A DNA stretch of 64,000 nt from Candidatus Gastranaerophilales bacterium (GTDB lineage Bacteria > Cyanobacteriota > Vampirovibrionia > Gastranaerophilales > Gastranaerophilaceae). A program made the position numbers and the translations under genes. The stretch lies in the NCBI GenBank assembly GCA_028693235.1, contig JAQUVW010000001.1, positions 346,616 to 410,615 of the forward strand, written 5' to 3'. This document shows positions 5,583 through 49,899 of the stretch, one piece after another. The notes beneath the pieces are model-generated. The model made no database searches and was not told the DNA's origin. It saw only the letters and a program-made list of their open reading frames with translations. Position 1 is the first letter of the stretch, and each line of letters starts with the position of its first letter.

Positions 5583-7021
5583 TATTCTTGACCTCCGATT
5601 TTATTCAAATATTCGATTACAACATCGTTTTCGTAAACTAAGTTTTCTAATGGTGGTGGTGGACAAGATTTATAACTCATAACAAGCATACCGTTAGCAA
5701 GTTGTGAAGCTGGGTTTTTTGCTGGGTTATAGAAAATTTCCGCATCAATCAAAGCACCTTTTTTCTTTTCAATAGAGAAGAAATCAGTTACTTTAGTTAT
5801 AATTCTGTCAATGATGACGTCAGAAATAGGACCATCAATTACATTTAAAGAGAAGTTTTCTATGCTTTCTTCAATATAATCAATCTGTCTGACACAACAT
5901 TCAAAAGTCATTAAACCATTTGAAGCAGGGAATGAAGCGTTTCTATTGCCCCATTCTTTATATGTCCCTCTATCATTTATAGTTGTTGTAATTCCGTAAG
6001 AGTTTAATTTGTTCGCATCGCAATCAACATCATTAAGTTCGAATGAGACAGGAACATCAAAGCCCTCAATTCCGTAGATTGGCTGGTTTGAAGATGACCA
6101 GTGAACACCTTTTGTTCTGTCCAAATTAGCTCTTAAACCAGCTGCAAAAGGTGAAGCGTATCGACATTCATAAGAATTCGTAACTTTGTTATATACCTTG
6201 TAGTGGTGATGTAAAAGCTTAATTCTTTCATTAGAAGTATTGAAATTGATTGTTCCTGCTTCGCCTCTACCTTCAATGGCAGTATTTAAAGAAGTATTCA
6301 TTGGTGCATCGATGTAAGCATAAGCCTTAAGCTTATTAACTAAAGGCTCTAATGCTGTTTTTATGGCATTAATAGAAGTAAATGCAGGTGCAATAATGAT
6401 TTTAGGCTTAACACCATATTTTGATTTAACATCTTTTAAAAGTTCTAAACCTGTTTTGATGCCATCTTGGTCAACACCACCAATTATATCTGCATTGGTA
6501 ATTTTAGACGGATCAGCATAATCATAAGCAACTGTTACTTCATCTGTTGCTGTTAAAGAACCACCTGTTTTTACTTCGATTACATTATCAACGAAAGTAT
6601 AATCAGTGTCTAAAACTGCAGCAGTTGAACCTTTTGTTACAGTTAAATTAGCAATGCCTAATTCTGCAAGTGTGATTTTACCTTTAACAAATGTTTTTGT
6701 TGAGCTGACATTAGACTTGTGGATAGATGGGTTAAATACGTTAATGACAAAAATTCTAGCACCACCTTTGCCATCAGTTTTTTGTTTAAAGATATCTTCT
6801 AATGATTGAGGAATAGTGTAGTTTGGATATGTTTTTCCAAAATATTTAGCGGCAGCTGTCGGATCAGAAATATCTACAATGTTATTAACTGTTTGATATT
6901 CAGCATCAACATCAAAAATCGGAGCAATACCAACTAAACCAATAATAGCAGTATCAACACCGCCAACGGTTACTGTATCAGATGTATTTCTTGTTGTACT
7001 TGAGCCGTGATGAAACGTCAT
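5582..7021 (-). CDS. Phage tail sheath protein
   Basis: A 479-residue contractile sheath protein. The N-terminal domain has the usual VGIAPIFDVD-type beta structure; the C-terminal region contains INDRGTYKEWGNRN and FECCVRQIDYIEESIE, corresponding to the conserved W-G-NR and R-I/V-x-D-x-I motifs of sheath proteins. An extra beta-rich insertion lies around residues 115-175 (KGKITLAELGIANLTVTKGS), a common surface-exposed variable domain. The start ATG at 7021 follows AAAGGAG; its first base is in the stop codon of the 60-aa gene upstream. Confidence 0.95.
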   Translation of the reverse strand: MTFHHGSSTTRNTSDTVTVGGVDTAIIGLVGIAPIFDVDAEYQTVNNIVDISDPTAAAKYFGKTYPNYTIPQSLEDIFKQKTDGKGGARIFVINVFNPSIHKSNVSSTKTFVKGKITLAELGIANLTVTKGSTAAVLDTDYTFVDNVIEVKTGGSLTATDEVTVAYDYADPSKITNADIIGGVDQDGIKTGLELLKDVKSKYGVKPKIIIAPAFTSINAIKTALEPLVNKLKAYAYIDAPMNTSLNTAIEGRGEAGTINFNTSNERIKLLHHHYKVYNKVTNSYECRYASPFAAGLRANLDRTKGVHWSSSNQPIYGIEGFDVPVSFELNDVDCDANKLNSYGITTTINDRGTYKEWGNRNASFPASNGLMTFECCVRQIDYIEESIENFSLNVIDGPISDVIIDRIITKVTDFFSIEKKKGALIDAEIFYNPAKNPASQLANGMLVMSYKSCPPPPLENLVYENDVVIEYLNKIGGQE

Positions 7022-12274: not shown

Positions 12275-13731
12275 TGCAAGCTAAAAGAAAAAAAAATGAA
12301 AATTTGCCTGTTGATAGTCTTGAAGAATTAAAAGATTTCTGGCTTCCCTATCAAAAAAGATGGCTATTGGATGATAGTCTTATTAAATTTGTCGAGAAAG
12401 GACGTCGTGAAGGTTTTACCTATGTTCAAGCCTATGAAGATGTCAGAGATTGTGTTCAAAAAAGATATTTTAGAAAAGGTCGTCCTCTTAGCGTTTGGTT
12501 CACTTCCGCTGACTTAACTGCAGCAAAAGAGTATATTCGATATTGCCAAGAACACGCCGAATTATTTAATGAAGTAGCAAAAGAACTTGGCGAAATTATT
12601 ATTGATGAAAAGAAAGATATTAAAGCTCTTTGTCTAGAGTTTAAAAATGGCGCAAGAATTTATGCGTTATCTTCAAATCCTACACAGTTTCGTTCAAAAG
12701 GTGGTAAAGTTGTCATTGATGAATTTGCATTCCATGATAACCCTCAAGAACTTTGGAAAGCTGCCTTTGCTGCTGCTAAAATCTGGGGATATCCTATTAG
12801 GGTTATTTCAACTCATAAAGGTATGCAATCCTTATTTTATAGGCTTATTGAAAAAATCAAAAAAGGTGCTTTAAAATATTCACTTCACACTGTGCCTATA
12901 CAATTAGCCGTTGCTGAAGGATTAGCAGATAAAATCATTGGACGTAAACTAACTGACGAAGAACGTCAAGCTTGGCTTGATGAATTACGAGAAGATGCAG
13001 GAGATGAGGCTACTTGGTTAGAAGAATTTTGTTGTATTCCTGTTGATGAATCTACAGCATTTTTGACATATGAATTAATTGAAAGTTGTATGAGTGATGA
13101 TGTTTTATTGCCGTTAGACGAAATAAACAGCGAATACTATGTAGGACAAGACGTTGCTCGTAAAAAAGATTTATCCGTAATAGCGGGCGGTGAACGTCCC
13201 GCTGATGTCTTATACGTACGACAACTTGTAATAATGGAAAAATTAAAATTTAGAACTCAAAAAGAAATTTTATATAAACACTTGAGTCATAAAACTTTCA
13301 GAAGAGCCAATATTGACGCTACTGGCTTAGGAATGAACTTGGCAGAAGATGCCCAGATAGATTATGGTAAAACAAAAGTTGAAGACATTTCTTTTACAAA
13401 CTCATTGAAAGAAGAACTTGCCTTTAATGTACTAAGAGCTTTTCAAGATAAAGCTATCAGAATTCCTAATGATTCTGCTTTAAAATCAGATTTACATTCT
13501 ATTAAAAAATTAATTACGGCATCAGGTCACATAAGGTTTGATGCCGATAAATCGGAAACTGACGGTCACGGTGATAGATTTTGGGCTATTGCACTATTAC
13601 TTAATGCTGCCGTGACAAAATCAGGTGGTAAATTAACCGTAAAATCGGCTTCACCAAGAAGAAATAAAAATCAAAAACTAGAATTTGATTACCAACCATT
13701 CAGAAGTCAATTTAAGAGGGGTATTTTTTAA
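12274..13731 (+). CDS. Terminase large subunit (Mu gp28-like)
   Basis: A 485-residue packaging ATPase/nuclease. The N-terminal ATPase has a Walker A-like KGRREGFT (residues 42-49), the FTSADLTAAKEYI segment, a coupling-type SSNPTQFRSKGG and Walker B VVIDEFAF (about 146-153). The C-terminal nuclease shows acidic centres in YVGQDVARKKDLSVI, NIDATGLGMN and DGHGDRFWAIALLL. It pumps phage DNA into heads with the portal; Mu-type phages package headful DNA including host flanks. TAATG overlap with the small subunit gene. Confidence 0.93.
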   Translation: MQAKRKKNENLPVDSLEELKDFWLPYQKRWLLDDSLIKFVEKGRREGFTYVQAYEDVRDCVQKRYFRKGRPLSVWFTSADLTAAKEYIRYCQEHAELFNEVAKELGEIIIDEKKDIKALCLEFKNGARIYALSSNPTQFRSKGGKVVIDEFAFHDNPQELWKAAFAAAKIWGYPIRVISTHKGMQSLFYRLIEKIKKGALKYSLHTVPIQLAVAEGLADKIIGRKLTDEERQAWLDELREDAGDEATWLEEFCCIPVDESTAFLTYELIESCMSDDVLLPLDEINSEYYVGQDVARKKDLSVIAGGERPADVLYVRQLVIMEKLKFRTQKEILYKHLSHKTFRRANIDATGLGMNLAEDAQIDYGKTKVEDISFTNSLKEELAFNVLRAFQDKAIRIPNDSALKSDLHSIKKLITASGHIRFDADKSETDGHGDRFWAIALLLNAAVTKSGGKLTVKSASPRRNKNQKLEFDYQPFRSQFKRGIF

Positions 13732-47270: not shown

Positions 47271-47293
47271 AAAAGCCGAGATTCTCGGCTTTT
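47271..47293. terminator. Bidirectional terminator
   Basis: AAAAGCCGAG-ATT-CTCGGCTTTT, perfect ten-base stem between convergent genes. Confidence 0.9.
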
Positions 47294-47296
47294 GAC

Positions 47297-47656
47297 TTAT
47301 ATTTTCACTCTAAGTTTTTCGATTTCTTCGTTGTAAGATTTCAACCTTTTAATAGCGTCTTCATTATTGTTCAAGATTATTTCTCTTATGGTTCTTGCTT
47401 GCTTTTGTTCAATTTGATAGATTTCGTTTAGAGTTTTTGCTGTTTGATTTGCTTTTCTGATAGCATTTTGCCGGCTAATGTATTCTTCTGTGTTCGATAT
47501 ATCAACGAGTTTTTTGTCTATTATCTTGTAGTTACTTTTGTTTGCAATTTTTTTGTGTGTTTCCTCATCTATTTCAATAAAGGGTGTTGCTGGATTTTGA
47601 GGGATATCCCAAAATTCTTTGATTTTACCATTTTCATCATATAAAACTTTAATCAT
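47297..47656 (-). CDS. Tail fibre assembly-like hypothetical protein
   Basis: 119 residues: N-terminal DENGKIKEFWDIPQNPATPF and VDISNTEEYIS segment, then a charged helix (TLNEIYQIEQKQARTIREII). The start with a FxD...W...P-like pattern and its position directly after a tail-fibre-like gene recall small fibre assembly or tail-tip proteins; identification is weak. It overlaps the fibre-like gene stop. Confidence 0.55.
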   Translation of the reverse strand: MIKVLYDENGKIKEFWDIPQNPATPFIEIDEETHKKIANKSNYKIIDKKLVDISNTEEYISRQNAIRKANQTAKTLNEIYQIEQKQARTIREIILNNNEDAIKRLKSYNEEIEKLRVKI

Positions 47657-48612
47657 TAGTTTGCTCCTTTTGTTTTGAAAAATGTCATTTGTGAGTTGGA
47701 ACCGTTTCCGCTAACGTGATAGTAATAATTTTTAGGAATAGGGACAATCATTTGTAGAGTGTTGTCGATGTCCGTTATTTTTGTGTGTGCGATGGTTGTA
47801 CCCAATGAGCTTGTGGGACCAATGTTGAGATAAAATGCTTGATTATTGTTTAGATATGCTCTCAGAAATAGAAAACCATCAGTTGTTGCTTGATAGAGTG
47901 TGTTCCAGCTTTGGTTTATTGGGGTAGAATAGTCAATCATAGCGTTTTGTGAAATTGTATTTTTGGCTTGAGTTGTAATGTTATCGAGGTTTTGTTCGGT
48001 GTTGGAGTTTACGTTGTAACCGTTTTGGTTAAATGGAAAGATTTCAATACTTTTGCCTGATTCAGCGTCGACAGTTAGTTTTCCTAGGGCAACTTTGTTG
48101 TATGCTACCCAAGTGGCTCCGTTGTATTTTTGAGATTTTATTGGCTCATTTGATGTATCAATCCAGATGTCGTTGGTTGTTGGTGAGGTTGGTACTGTTT
48201 TTTGTTTGTAGATTGTGTTTTTTAGAACCTCAGTGGTTCCTGTTATATCGATAAAAATATTGTGGGTGCCTTCTATTAATGATTCGCAATTAATAGGAGT
48301 TATGCCGCTTAATAGTTTTGATTCGCCCAATGCGTCTGTAATTGTGAATGGATTGTTGAAATATATTGTGTTACCCGACAAGGATAGCACTGTTCCGGTT
48401 GAAGAGTTTATGCATAGTCTTGTTTTGACTTCTTTAAGGTCGTTTTTTGCGTCAGTTACTGTTGTCGAAATGTTTTGAATGTTTGTGTTTGTTTCATTTA
48501 GCCCTGTGTTTAATTCCGTTAAATAGTCTATTACTTTAGAAAAGTTTGAGTTTACCTCGTTTGCTTTGGCTTTTGTTCCAGGGATAAATGTAAATGGTAT
48601 TTTGTAGCTCAT
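47656..48612 (-). CDS. Phage tail fibre-like protein, outside the prophage
   Basis: 318 residues. N-terminus IPFTFIPGTKAKANEVNSNF is the phage fibre/collar pattern (A-x-x-V-N-x-N-F), followed by a coiled coil (LNETNTNIQNISTTVTDAKN) and Asn/Thr-rich beta regions with KYNGATWVAYNKVALG typical of fibre proteins and a beta-rich C-terminus. It lies about 20 kb from the prophage in the opposite part of the window, so it is either part of a phage remnant or an acquired fibre gene. ATG 48612 follows GAAAGGA. Confidence 0.7.
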   Translation of the reverse strand: MSYKIPFTFIPGTKAKANEVNSNFSKVIDYLTELNTGLNETNTNIQNISTTVTDAKNDLKEVKTRLCINSSTGTVLSLSGNTIYFNNPFTITDALGESKLLSGITPINCESLIEGTHNIFIDITGTTEVLKNTIYKQKTVPTSPTTNDIWIDTSNEPIKSQKYNGATWVAYNKVALGKLTVDAESGKSIEIFPFNQNGYNVNSNTEQNLDNITTQAKNTISQNAMIDYSTPINQSWNTLYQATTDGFLFLRAYLNNNQAFYLNIGPTSSLGTTIAHTKITDIDNTLQMIVPIPKNYYYHVSGNGSNSQMTFFKTKGAN

Positions 48613-48777
48613 AATATTCCTTTCTTGCTTATGGCTTTGGTTGACAGGAATAGTATGGCATTTTTTTATTTTGCAAATTTGTTTTTTGTCATCGATAGGT
48701 GTTTTAATAACATGTTCAAAATGTAATCAATTACGGAAAGTGTAAATATTTCGATTCAATGATGCGTAATCGATAGG

Positions 48778-49899
48778 TTATAATTTTATTTTTATAGATA
48801 GTTTTTTGTATTTTTCAAGGGTGCTTTTTCCTGAAATATCTATTTCGGCAAATTTTACATATTCCCATGCATTGATTACGTTGTCGTTTTCAAGCGTATC
48901 GAGGGCTTTTTCGATGTTGTTTCTGATTACAGAGGGTCGTAGCGATGTAGTTTGAGATTTTATGAGGTCAACAATTGAACAACATTTAATTTTTAAGTTC
49001 ATCTTTTTTTCAATGTATGCTCTGTAGTAAATGAATTCTCCGATTAATTTTTCTGTAATTTGTGTTTTGGGATTGTATTCAATTAATTTTTTAGATAAAT
49101 AATATGAGGCACTCGGCAGTTTTAAAAGAGTAAGAGCATATTTATAGTTGCCCCTTTCTTTTATATCAATGAGCCCTAAGTTTTTGATGAAATATAAAGC
49201 TTCTTTGATTAGGACTAATTGTTTTGCATTATTGGTTTTTATATTTCTATAATTTTGAATGTCAGACGCAGATATTTCAATTAGCCTATTTGGTAAAACA
49301 TCTATAAAAACGCTCATAACAATGTTGAAAATATCAAGAAATGCAGGTTTGTAATCAATTTTTTGGGTTTCAATATCTTTCTTATCAAAAATGACAGCAC
49401 GTGGTGAATTATTCGATAAAGAAGTGCTTGCTTCTATTCCTTTTATTCCTAATTTGTTAAATACACTGTTCCAAATATTATCAACAAATTCTTCAAAAAT
49501 TTGTTCAATTTTATGCTCATCAAAAGCCAAATTTATCTCTAATTTTGTTTCTTCAATAAATTTTAAAGAAATAATGAAATAGCTATCTTCTAAAGAAGCC
49601 CCTTCAATAAAGGTTGTTTGAATTTTTATAACGCCTGAATATTTCGCTTGATTATTGCTTAGTTTGAAATCGTATGGAGCACTAATAAACCTGCTTTCGA
49701 AATAGAAATCTTTATACTTCTCATCAATTTGCCCCAAAAAACTAATTTCATTTTCACTAAGATAGTATTTATAAATTTTTTCTTTTGTAACCTCAAGCCC
49801 ATATAAATTGTCTGATACGACGTTAAGGCAAAATCTGGTTATACATTTTGCTATCATTAATTCTTGTGTAAAGTTGTTTGGAGTCTGTGTTTTTGGCAT
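48778..49899 (-). CDS. Hypothetical protein with two winged-helix-like segments
   Basis: 373 residues, no recognised domain. Two short stretches look like winged-helix DNA-binding parts: VLIKEALYFIKNLGLIDIKE (about 237-256) and RPSVIRNNIEKALDTLENDN near the C-terminus. The overall layout is compatible with a replication-initiation or regulatory protein of a mobile element, but no catalytic motif is visible. It may belong to the same acquired island as the fibre-like gene. Confidence 0.55.
   Translation of the reverse strand: MPKTQTPNNFTQELMIAKCITRFCLNVVSDNLYGLEVTKEKIYKYYLSENEISFLGQIDEKYKDFYFESRFISAPYDFKLSNNQAKYSGVIKIQTTFIEGASLEDSYFIISLKFIEETKLEINLAFDEHKIEQIFEEFVDNIWNSVFNKLGIKGIEASTSLSNNSPRAVIFDKKDIETQKIDYKPAFLDIFNIVMSVFIDVLPNRLIEISASDIQNYRNIKTNNAKQLVLIKEALYFIKNLGLIDIKERGNYKYALTLLKLPSASYYLSKKLIEYNPKTQITEKLIGEFIYYRAYIEKKMNLKIKCCSIVDLIKSQTTSLRPSVIRNNIEKALDTLENDNVINAWEYVKFAEIDISGKSTLEKYKKLSIKIKL

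Follow-up and report, generated by a model that had tools for sequence, protein, structure and literature searches.

Introduction

Gene transfer agents of the RcGTA type are vertically inherited, encoded at dispersed loci and controlled by the host, and RcGTA itself has a long tail and a capsid of the HK97 type. Gene transfer agents have been established in few groups. A paper of January 2026 describes the element FpGTA of Faecalibacterium, for which podovirus-like particles are shown, and according to its main text this is the first GTA-like element with podovirus-like morphology (PMC12946183). As described there, FpGTA combines a 10.5 kb head and packaging operon (TerS, TerL, portal, scaffold and capsid) with a second, distant operon that encodes a tail fibre, a receptor-binding protein, a holin and an endolysin (PMC12946183). 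The main text of that paper contains no mention of Gastranaerophil-, Melainabacteria, Vampirovibrio or Cyanobacteri-. Our literature search, whose scope left most subscription papers and bioRxiv preprints outside, found no report of a gene transfer agent for Gastranaerophilales, and the publications pairing gene transfer agents with Melainabacteria were judged unrelated from their titles and the starts of their abstracts.

Here, we analyzed a DNA stretch of 64,000 nucleotides from a Gastranaerophilales genome (hereafter the window, G000:C1:346616-410615; genome G000 comprises 2.1 Mb on 7 contigs and is 98.8% complete) and compared it with related genomes. Going by the description of FpGTA in the main text cited above, the Gastranaerophilales system, which is known from its genes alone, is similar in having a podovirus-like head and packaging cluster and a separate fibre operon. 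It differs in belonging to another lineage and in that the main cluster retains the amidase, holin and tail gene, whereas the fibre and its assembly gene are detached.

Architecture of the fibre cassette

An earlier note on the window had placed a fibre-like gene, an assembly-like gene and a third gene among host genes at 47297-49899, and three intact ORFs were indeed found there on the minus strand (Table 1). On one side, the cassette is flanked by genes for a flavodoxin-fold protein (Pfam) and an unassigned 130-aa protein, and on the other side by a 4HBT thioesterase (Pfam) with a second protein, which we take to be a TPR protein; the flanks are host-like. The FIB stop codon shares one base with the start codon of ASM (TAATG), which is preceded by GGAG, and the hexamer AAGGAA, which resembles a ribosome-binding site, ends 4 bases ahead of the FIB start. 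The gap between WH and FIB is possibly a regulatory region. It contains a 13-bp direct repeat GT[C/A]ATCGATAGGT with one mismatch (48688-48700 and 48766-48778), the second copy of which ends on the last base of WH, and this repeat may be due to chance. The promoter scan was uninformative, with 15 promoters found versus 16.7 expected by shuffling, and the terminator scan gave 3 versus 1.8 expected.

Table 1. Features of the WH-FIB-ASM cassette in window coordinates.
Feature	Position	Strand	Description
WH	48778..49899	-	373 aa; first cassette gene; N-terminal alpha/beta part and C-terminal winged-helix-like half
WH-FIB gap	48613..48777	-	165 bp
FIB	47656..48612	-	318-aa phage-type fibre, based on homologs
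FIB parts			N-terminal motif GTKAKAxEVNxNF; long helix 17-60; beta domain ~61-198; jelly-roll-like tip ~221-318 (residues)
ASM	47297..47656	-	119 aa, tail-fibre-assembly-like; sibling genes match phrog_188 or DUF4376
Inverted repeat	47271..47293	.	11-nt arms, 100% complementary; scored terminator-like on both strands; closes the cassette

FIB, ASM and WH showed no Pfam match above the cut-off, and their PHROG matches were weak. A curated fibre domain was found in the window FIB neither by Pfam nor by PHROG; its siblings at loci L068 and L060 pass PF21882. Hence, FIB is called fibre-like because of the homologs described below and not because of a curated domain in the window protein itself. 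Besides its weak PHROG matches, ASM is adjacent and coupled to FIB.

The structural model of FIB (mean pLDDT 71.7) consists of a long N-terminal helix followed by beta domains. Its beta domain (residues 61-194) aligned with Mtd with a Z score of 8.7 over 103 residues at 3.4 A, and the model resembles Mtd and the receptor-binding proteins of phages 1358 and p2 in the combination of a beta domain and a jelly-roll-like tip. Sequence identity to the phage receptor-binding proteins was about 10%, however, and TssK of the T6SS reached a similar score (Z 8.6); the top structural match was a phi812 baseplate protein with Z 9.4 at a poor rmsd of 13.6. Since TssK scores alike, the match points to a common baseplate/receptor-binding arrangement and not to a particular function.

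Fibre loci across the family

A profile of the 50 N-terminal residues of FIB was searched against 239 genomes of the family (match at E<=0.01, strong match at E<1e-5). It matched 121 of them, 113 with a single match, and 108 of the 121 at E<1e-5. In a class-wide draw of 194 genomes from 78 genera, 61 genomes matched at E<=1e-5 and all 61 belong to this family. The FIB alignment led to 27 loci in named genome contigs. In 19 of these, the fibre adjoins pheA and/or tyrS homologs, and in most cases an assembly-like gene comes after it (the names tyrS, pheA, acpS, PGM, cysE, sua5 and gltD are presumptive and were assigned from the sequences). The fibre at L068 passes the Pfam Gp53-like tip domain, and its neighbour matches 'tail fiber assembly protein'. 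Even at the pheA/tyrS site the fibre tips vary, being either Gp53-like or longer and different, and the fibres of genus g36 give poorer matches to the N-terminal profile (E 1e-7 to 1e-9). Residues 8-256 of the window FIB are 31% identical (E 5e-25) to a fibre on contig JAKSUT010000029, from a genome taken as cluster-bearing. In one genome, the fibre locus (L148, G036:C79) also carries holin and amidase genes at a host site. On the viral contig L029 (4398-7239), a fibre with the same N-terminus is followed by a reverse transcriptase gene (PF00078, phrog_1423), which suggests a diversified tip.

A conserved podovirus-like particle cluster

Terminase_6N was detected in 41 of 60 genomes, which led to a cluster of about 10 kb with podovirus-like gene content: amidase, tail protein, capsid, holin, a scaffold-like gene, ORF233, small terminase, two small genes (one GNAT), portal and large terminase. 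The capsid belongs to phrog_267 and the portal is of the Pfam SU10 type, in contrast to the long tail and HK97-type capsid of RcGTA. A family-wide contractile or HK97 particle was considered as the partner of the fibre and rejected, with a sheath in 8 and an HK97 capsid in 10 of 60 genomes.

The terminase profile matched 142 of the 239 family genomes, 129 of them once. When the matches were divided into classes A, B and C by bit score, with cuts set after the scores had been seen and partial matches (e.g. G086 and G114) placed by genus, 14 of the 17 class-A loci over 12 kb had one and the same host gene downstream in the same orientation, as against none of the 10 class-B/C loci, of which two had less than 2.5 kb left to inspect. 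Among the 20 genomes for which both sequences were available, terminase identity (mean 89%) tracks that of the host protein PheA (mean 77%) with r 0.82, a value reached in 0 of 2000 permutations. In genus g7, the median dN/dS was 0.021 for the terminase (47/55 pairs), 0.044 for pheA (57/66 pairs) and 0.149 for the fibre (50/78 pairs), at a dS near saturation; the distal part of the fibre is the most variable. The co-divergence with PheA and the low dN/dS argue for vertical inheritance of the cluster and its use by the host. Moreover, no replication or integration genes were noticed by eye among the ORFs read around this head and packaging cluster in the relatives. Being mostly single-copy, often syntenic, co-diverging with a host gene and under strong purifying selection, the cluster has the appearance of a gene transfer agent whose fibre locus is detached.

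In the loci read from genera g17, g9 and g18, the cluster was found to be rearranged or incomplete. Neither a portal nor a small terminase was seen on the g17 contig or in about 20 kb of two g9 loci, and the g18 clusters L235 and L236 kept the head and packaging genes without the tail gene. Of 41 matches among viral contigs, 25 have a terminase identity of 76-92%. The lengths of 24 of these 25 contigs range from 4.8 to 18.5 kb, and the remaining one, L252 of 33.8 kb, runs by eye past the cluster into host-like genes. Beside TerL, the loci L183, L184, L185, L189 and L237 contain variable genes of about 180-240 aa, some with a DAFRH motif (by eye), which in some clusters lie between portal and terminase and represent putative cargo.

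Linkage of fibre and cluster

Fibre (E<1e-5) and cluster terminase (class A/B) occurred together in 98 of the 239 genomes, the fibre alone in 10, the terminase alone in 9 and neither in 122; by genus the numbers are 19, 5, 1 and 16, both tables ignoring phylogeny, using class limits set after seeing the scores and counting genomes without a match as negative. The capsid profile, run on the 10 fibre-alone genomes as well as G078 and G022, detects the cluster in 3 of these 10. Six of the nine terminase-alone genomes belong to g18, in which two clusters were read also without the tail gene, as if fibre and tail had been lost together. No strong fibre match was obtained in any of the 35 class-C genomes; two of the class-C loci, L187 and L173, have, near cluster genes, a fibre whose N-terminus has diverged. 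A single contig of G007 carries both fibre and terminase at a distance of about 45 kb, and in G055 the fibre is part of the cluster itself, flanked by the amidase and the tail gene. Since the fibre of G020 (g21) is not beside the cluster, this in-cluster placement comes from the one genome G055.

Two phage contigs provide a further connection. IMGVR_UViG_3300030943_000064 (40.6 kb) and 3300010163_000231 (20.6 kb) carry a fibre with the FIB-type N-terminus downstream of tail genes, with homologs of the cluster tail, ORF233 and GNAT genes upstream, in the setting of a larger phage contig. Thus, the N-terminal module is common to fibres in virion gene clusters, namely in these two phage contigs and one particle cluster.

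In the window's own genome G000, 98.8% complete, neither a cluster terminase (E<=1e-10) nor a capsid (E<=1) was detected, so the cassette would there be a leftover or a re-used arm.

The WH gene

The earlier note had called the third protein winged-helix-like. The structural model of WH (mean pLDDT 66) supports this weakly, since CodY was matched at E about 1e-3 and the winged helix of PerR locally, in no case at E<=0.001; a known DNA-binding domain was not found by Pfam, nor was a match to sequences of solved structures. WH is likely a DNA-binding regulator. A single-protein search found homologs in 13 of 146 family genomes, with the window's own included and two of them weak with stops, and a profile search in 19 of 383 genomes. 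A FIB-like and an assembly-like gene directly follow WH in three g17 genomes and in G041 (g3), with host genes around the cassette. The WH gene of G036 (g37) heads genes of 135, 271 and 134 aa that look by eye like a fibre cassette and match no fibre family in PHROGs. Five g36 loci (L021, L024, L025, L026 and L027) have WH without an adjoining fibre; it follows a gene that we take to be sua5-like in all five, with a presumably gltD-like gene on the other side in four, and may regulate something else there. Relatives of WH were not found in viral contigs; this is weak evidence against a phage gene because the search patterns were few.

Terminase and capsid are absent from four of the five genomes with WH-FIB linkage (G000, G016, G041 and G051), and the fifth, G078, has both on a contig that yielded neither a portal nor a small terminase. 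Among the other fibre-positive genomes, 3 of 103 have neither terminase nor capsid (Fisher P 3e-5 versus the WH-linked genomes, ignoring phylogeny), namely G004 and G038 (75% and 80% complete) and G035 (99%). Therefore, the WH-linked cassettes tend to be those without a particle. In G041, a small gene behind ASM encodes a protein with 49% (L237) and 37% (L228) identity to that of the gene directly behind the cluster terminase, which ties the WH-linked cassette to the particle cluster. These small genes (L057:11897-12136 behind ASM of the WH-fibre cassette; L237:4680-4910 and L228:10323-10565 behind the terminase) appear to encode membrane proteins.

Resident prophages and the cassette site

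The left part of the window, from 1 to about 28400, belongs to a contractile-tailed prophage that runs off its left end (continued in L016:14300-20000), with the sheath gene at 5939-6454 and the terminase gene at 12394-13074; its early genes are presumably Mu-like. As read by eye from the ORFs, its other end lies about 5.7 kb left of the window and its right end near 27.8-28.4 kb, therefore the cassette is about 19 kb away, close to the 20 kb given before. Two further prophages were seen in G000. L141 (G000:C4:309000-326661), presumably Mu-like as well, encodes a 728-aa fibre with the motif G-KAKA-EVN-NF common to FIB, and L195 together with L233 (G000:C5:4000-43900) covers a podovirus-like prophage on contig C5, among whose products are a 2619-aa protein and, by eye, a 325-aa putative reverse transcriptase of a diversity-generating element.

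The earlier note had proposed a comparison of FIB with prophage fibres. FIB and the fibre of the neighbouring prophage showed insignificant similarity (best E 0.19), hence an origin from this prophage was rejected. The fibre of the second resident prophage L141 shares 11 of 16 residues of the N-terminal motif with FIB without being a close match overall. The sole, distant similarity to the neighbouring prophage is that between ASM and its assembly-like protein (53 residues, 26%, E 4e-5 in a single comparison); at a distance of about 19 kb and with an unmatched fibre, the cassette does not behave as a moron of this prophage. The alternative readings as its moron or remnant are also unsupported, given that 121 of 239 family genomes have the fibre module, for the most part in one copy, and that it lies among host genes in most loci read. 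What was borne out is a phage-origin fibre and assembly-like gene off any prophage, together with a separate regulator-like gene. The converse case, a host gene conserved in all relatives that has no phage homologs, was half confirmed, in that the locus is chromosomal in many relatives, but the phage homologs are clear.

Among 29 loci of relatives with the thioesterase, read for about 1.5 kb per side, the TPR-thioesterase pair was found in 5 and WH, FIB or ASM in none. The window's species is the sole genome of its genus sampled, hence the relatives show the pair present and the cassette absent, and the cassette site looks lineage-specific.

Discussion

Our data indicate that a particle system of podovirus origin has probably been domesticated in this family, most likely as a gene transfer agent, and that the WH-FIB-ASM cassette is probably a copy of its detached fibre locus in rearranged form. 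This reading draws on homology, the mostly single-copy distribution, co-occurrence with the cluster, one in-cluster fibre, the vertical inheritance of the cluster and purifying selection in the relatives. Counting against it are the cluster terminase and capsid undetected in G000, the nine terminase-positive genomes without the fibre, the lack of a curated fibre domain in the window FIB, the poorer profile match of the g36 fibres, the rearranged or incomplete clusters of g17, g9 and g18, and the absence of WH-fibre linkage in g36. In the relatives, the cluster of about 10 kb would produce the head, the packaging motor, the short tail and the lysis proteins, and the particle may package host DNA. 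The separate FIB-ASM pair would supply the receptor-binding fibre, with ASM aiding its folding, the conserved FIB N-terminus presumably plugging into the particle and the variable tip picking the recipient. In G000, the fibre pair persists behind the regulator-like gene and could be a leftover or could have been redeployed, e.g. on a co-resident phage.

It is unlikely, though it deserves weighing, that the cassette is a phage remnant, in which the terminal genes of a prophage (fibre, assembly protein and sometimes lysis genes) outlasted its decay by chance and without function. The prophage L141 likewise has, by eye, the order fibre, assembly-like, amidase-like and holin-like gene, fibre, holin and amidase lie together at a host site in G036, and cluster terminase and capsid were not detected in G000. 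Chance survival is at odds, however, with a module that is present mostly once per genome and at one common host site in 19 of 27 loci, with the low median dN/dS of the fibre in g7 (0.15), with the intact and coupled ORFs in the window and with the WH-linked versions in g1, g3 and g17. The 11 of 16 motif residues common to the fibre of the second resident prophage, the same motif in phage fibres, and the missing cluster in four of the five genomes with the WH-linked cassette would also agree with a fibre reservoir or decoy, in which the cell's fibre and chaperone are built into the virions of infecting or resident phages and shift their host range. We regard this as rather improbable, since neither of the two resident prophage fibres compared is a close match, there is usually one copy instead of a set of alternatives, and the fibre tracks the cluster, whereas sheath (8/60) and HK97 capsid (10/60) are sporadic.

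A different question concerns the nature of the conserved cluster, which with its domesticated look and its retained lysis genes might encode a bacteriocin-like killing or structural particle with FIB as the targeting arm. Portal, small and large terminase and capsid are kept, however, and the large terminase is under strong purifying selection, all of which would be needless for a DNA-free killer; accordingly, we consider such a particle very unlikely. The gene transfer agent with a detached fibre thus remains our preferred reading. In a wider form, which we put forward tentatively, Gastranaerophilales might possess an ancient, vertically inherited, podovirus-derived gene transfer agent whose detached and fast-evolving fibre locus sets the recipients, and some lineages including that of the window might have lost the particle, joined the fibre to WH and come to re-arm other particles.

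If true, this would add a second podovirus-like lineage of gene transfer agents, with the cluster terminase in 142 of 239 family genomes, and make such particles a general topic in gut bacteria. Moreover, it would name the genes to test for the choice of recipients. The window itself provides a naturally occurring example of a genome in which a fibre locus is present and its particle was not detected.
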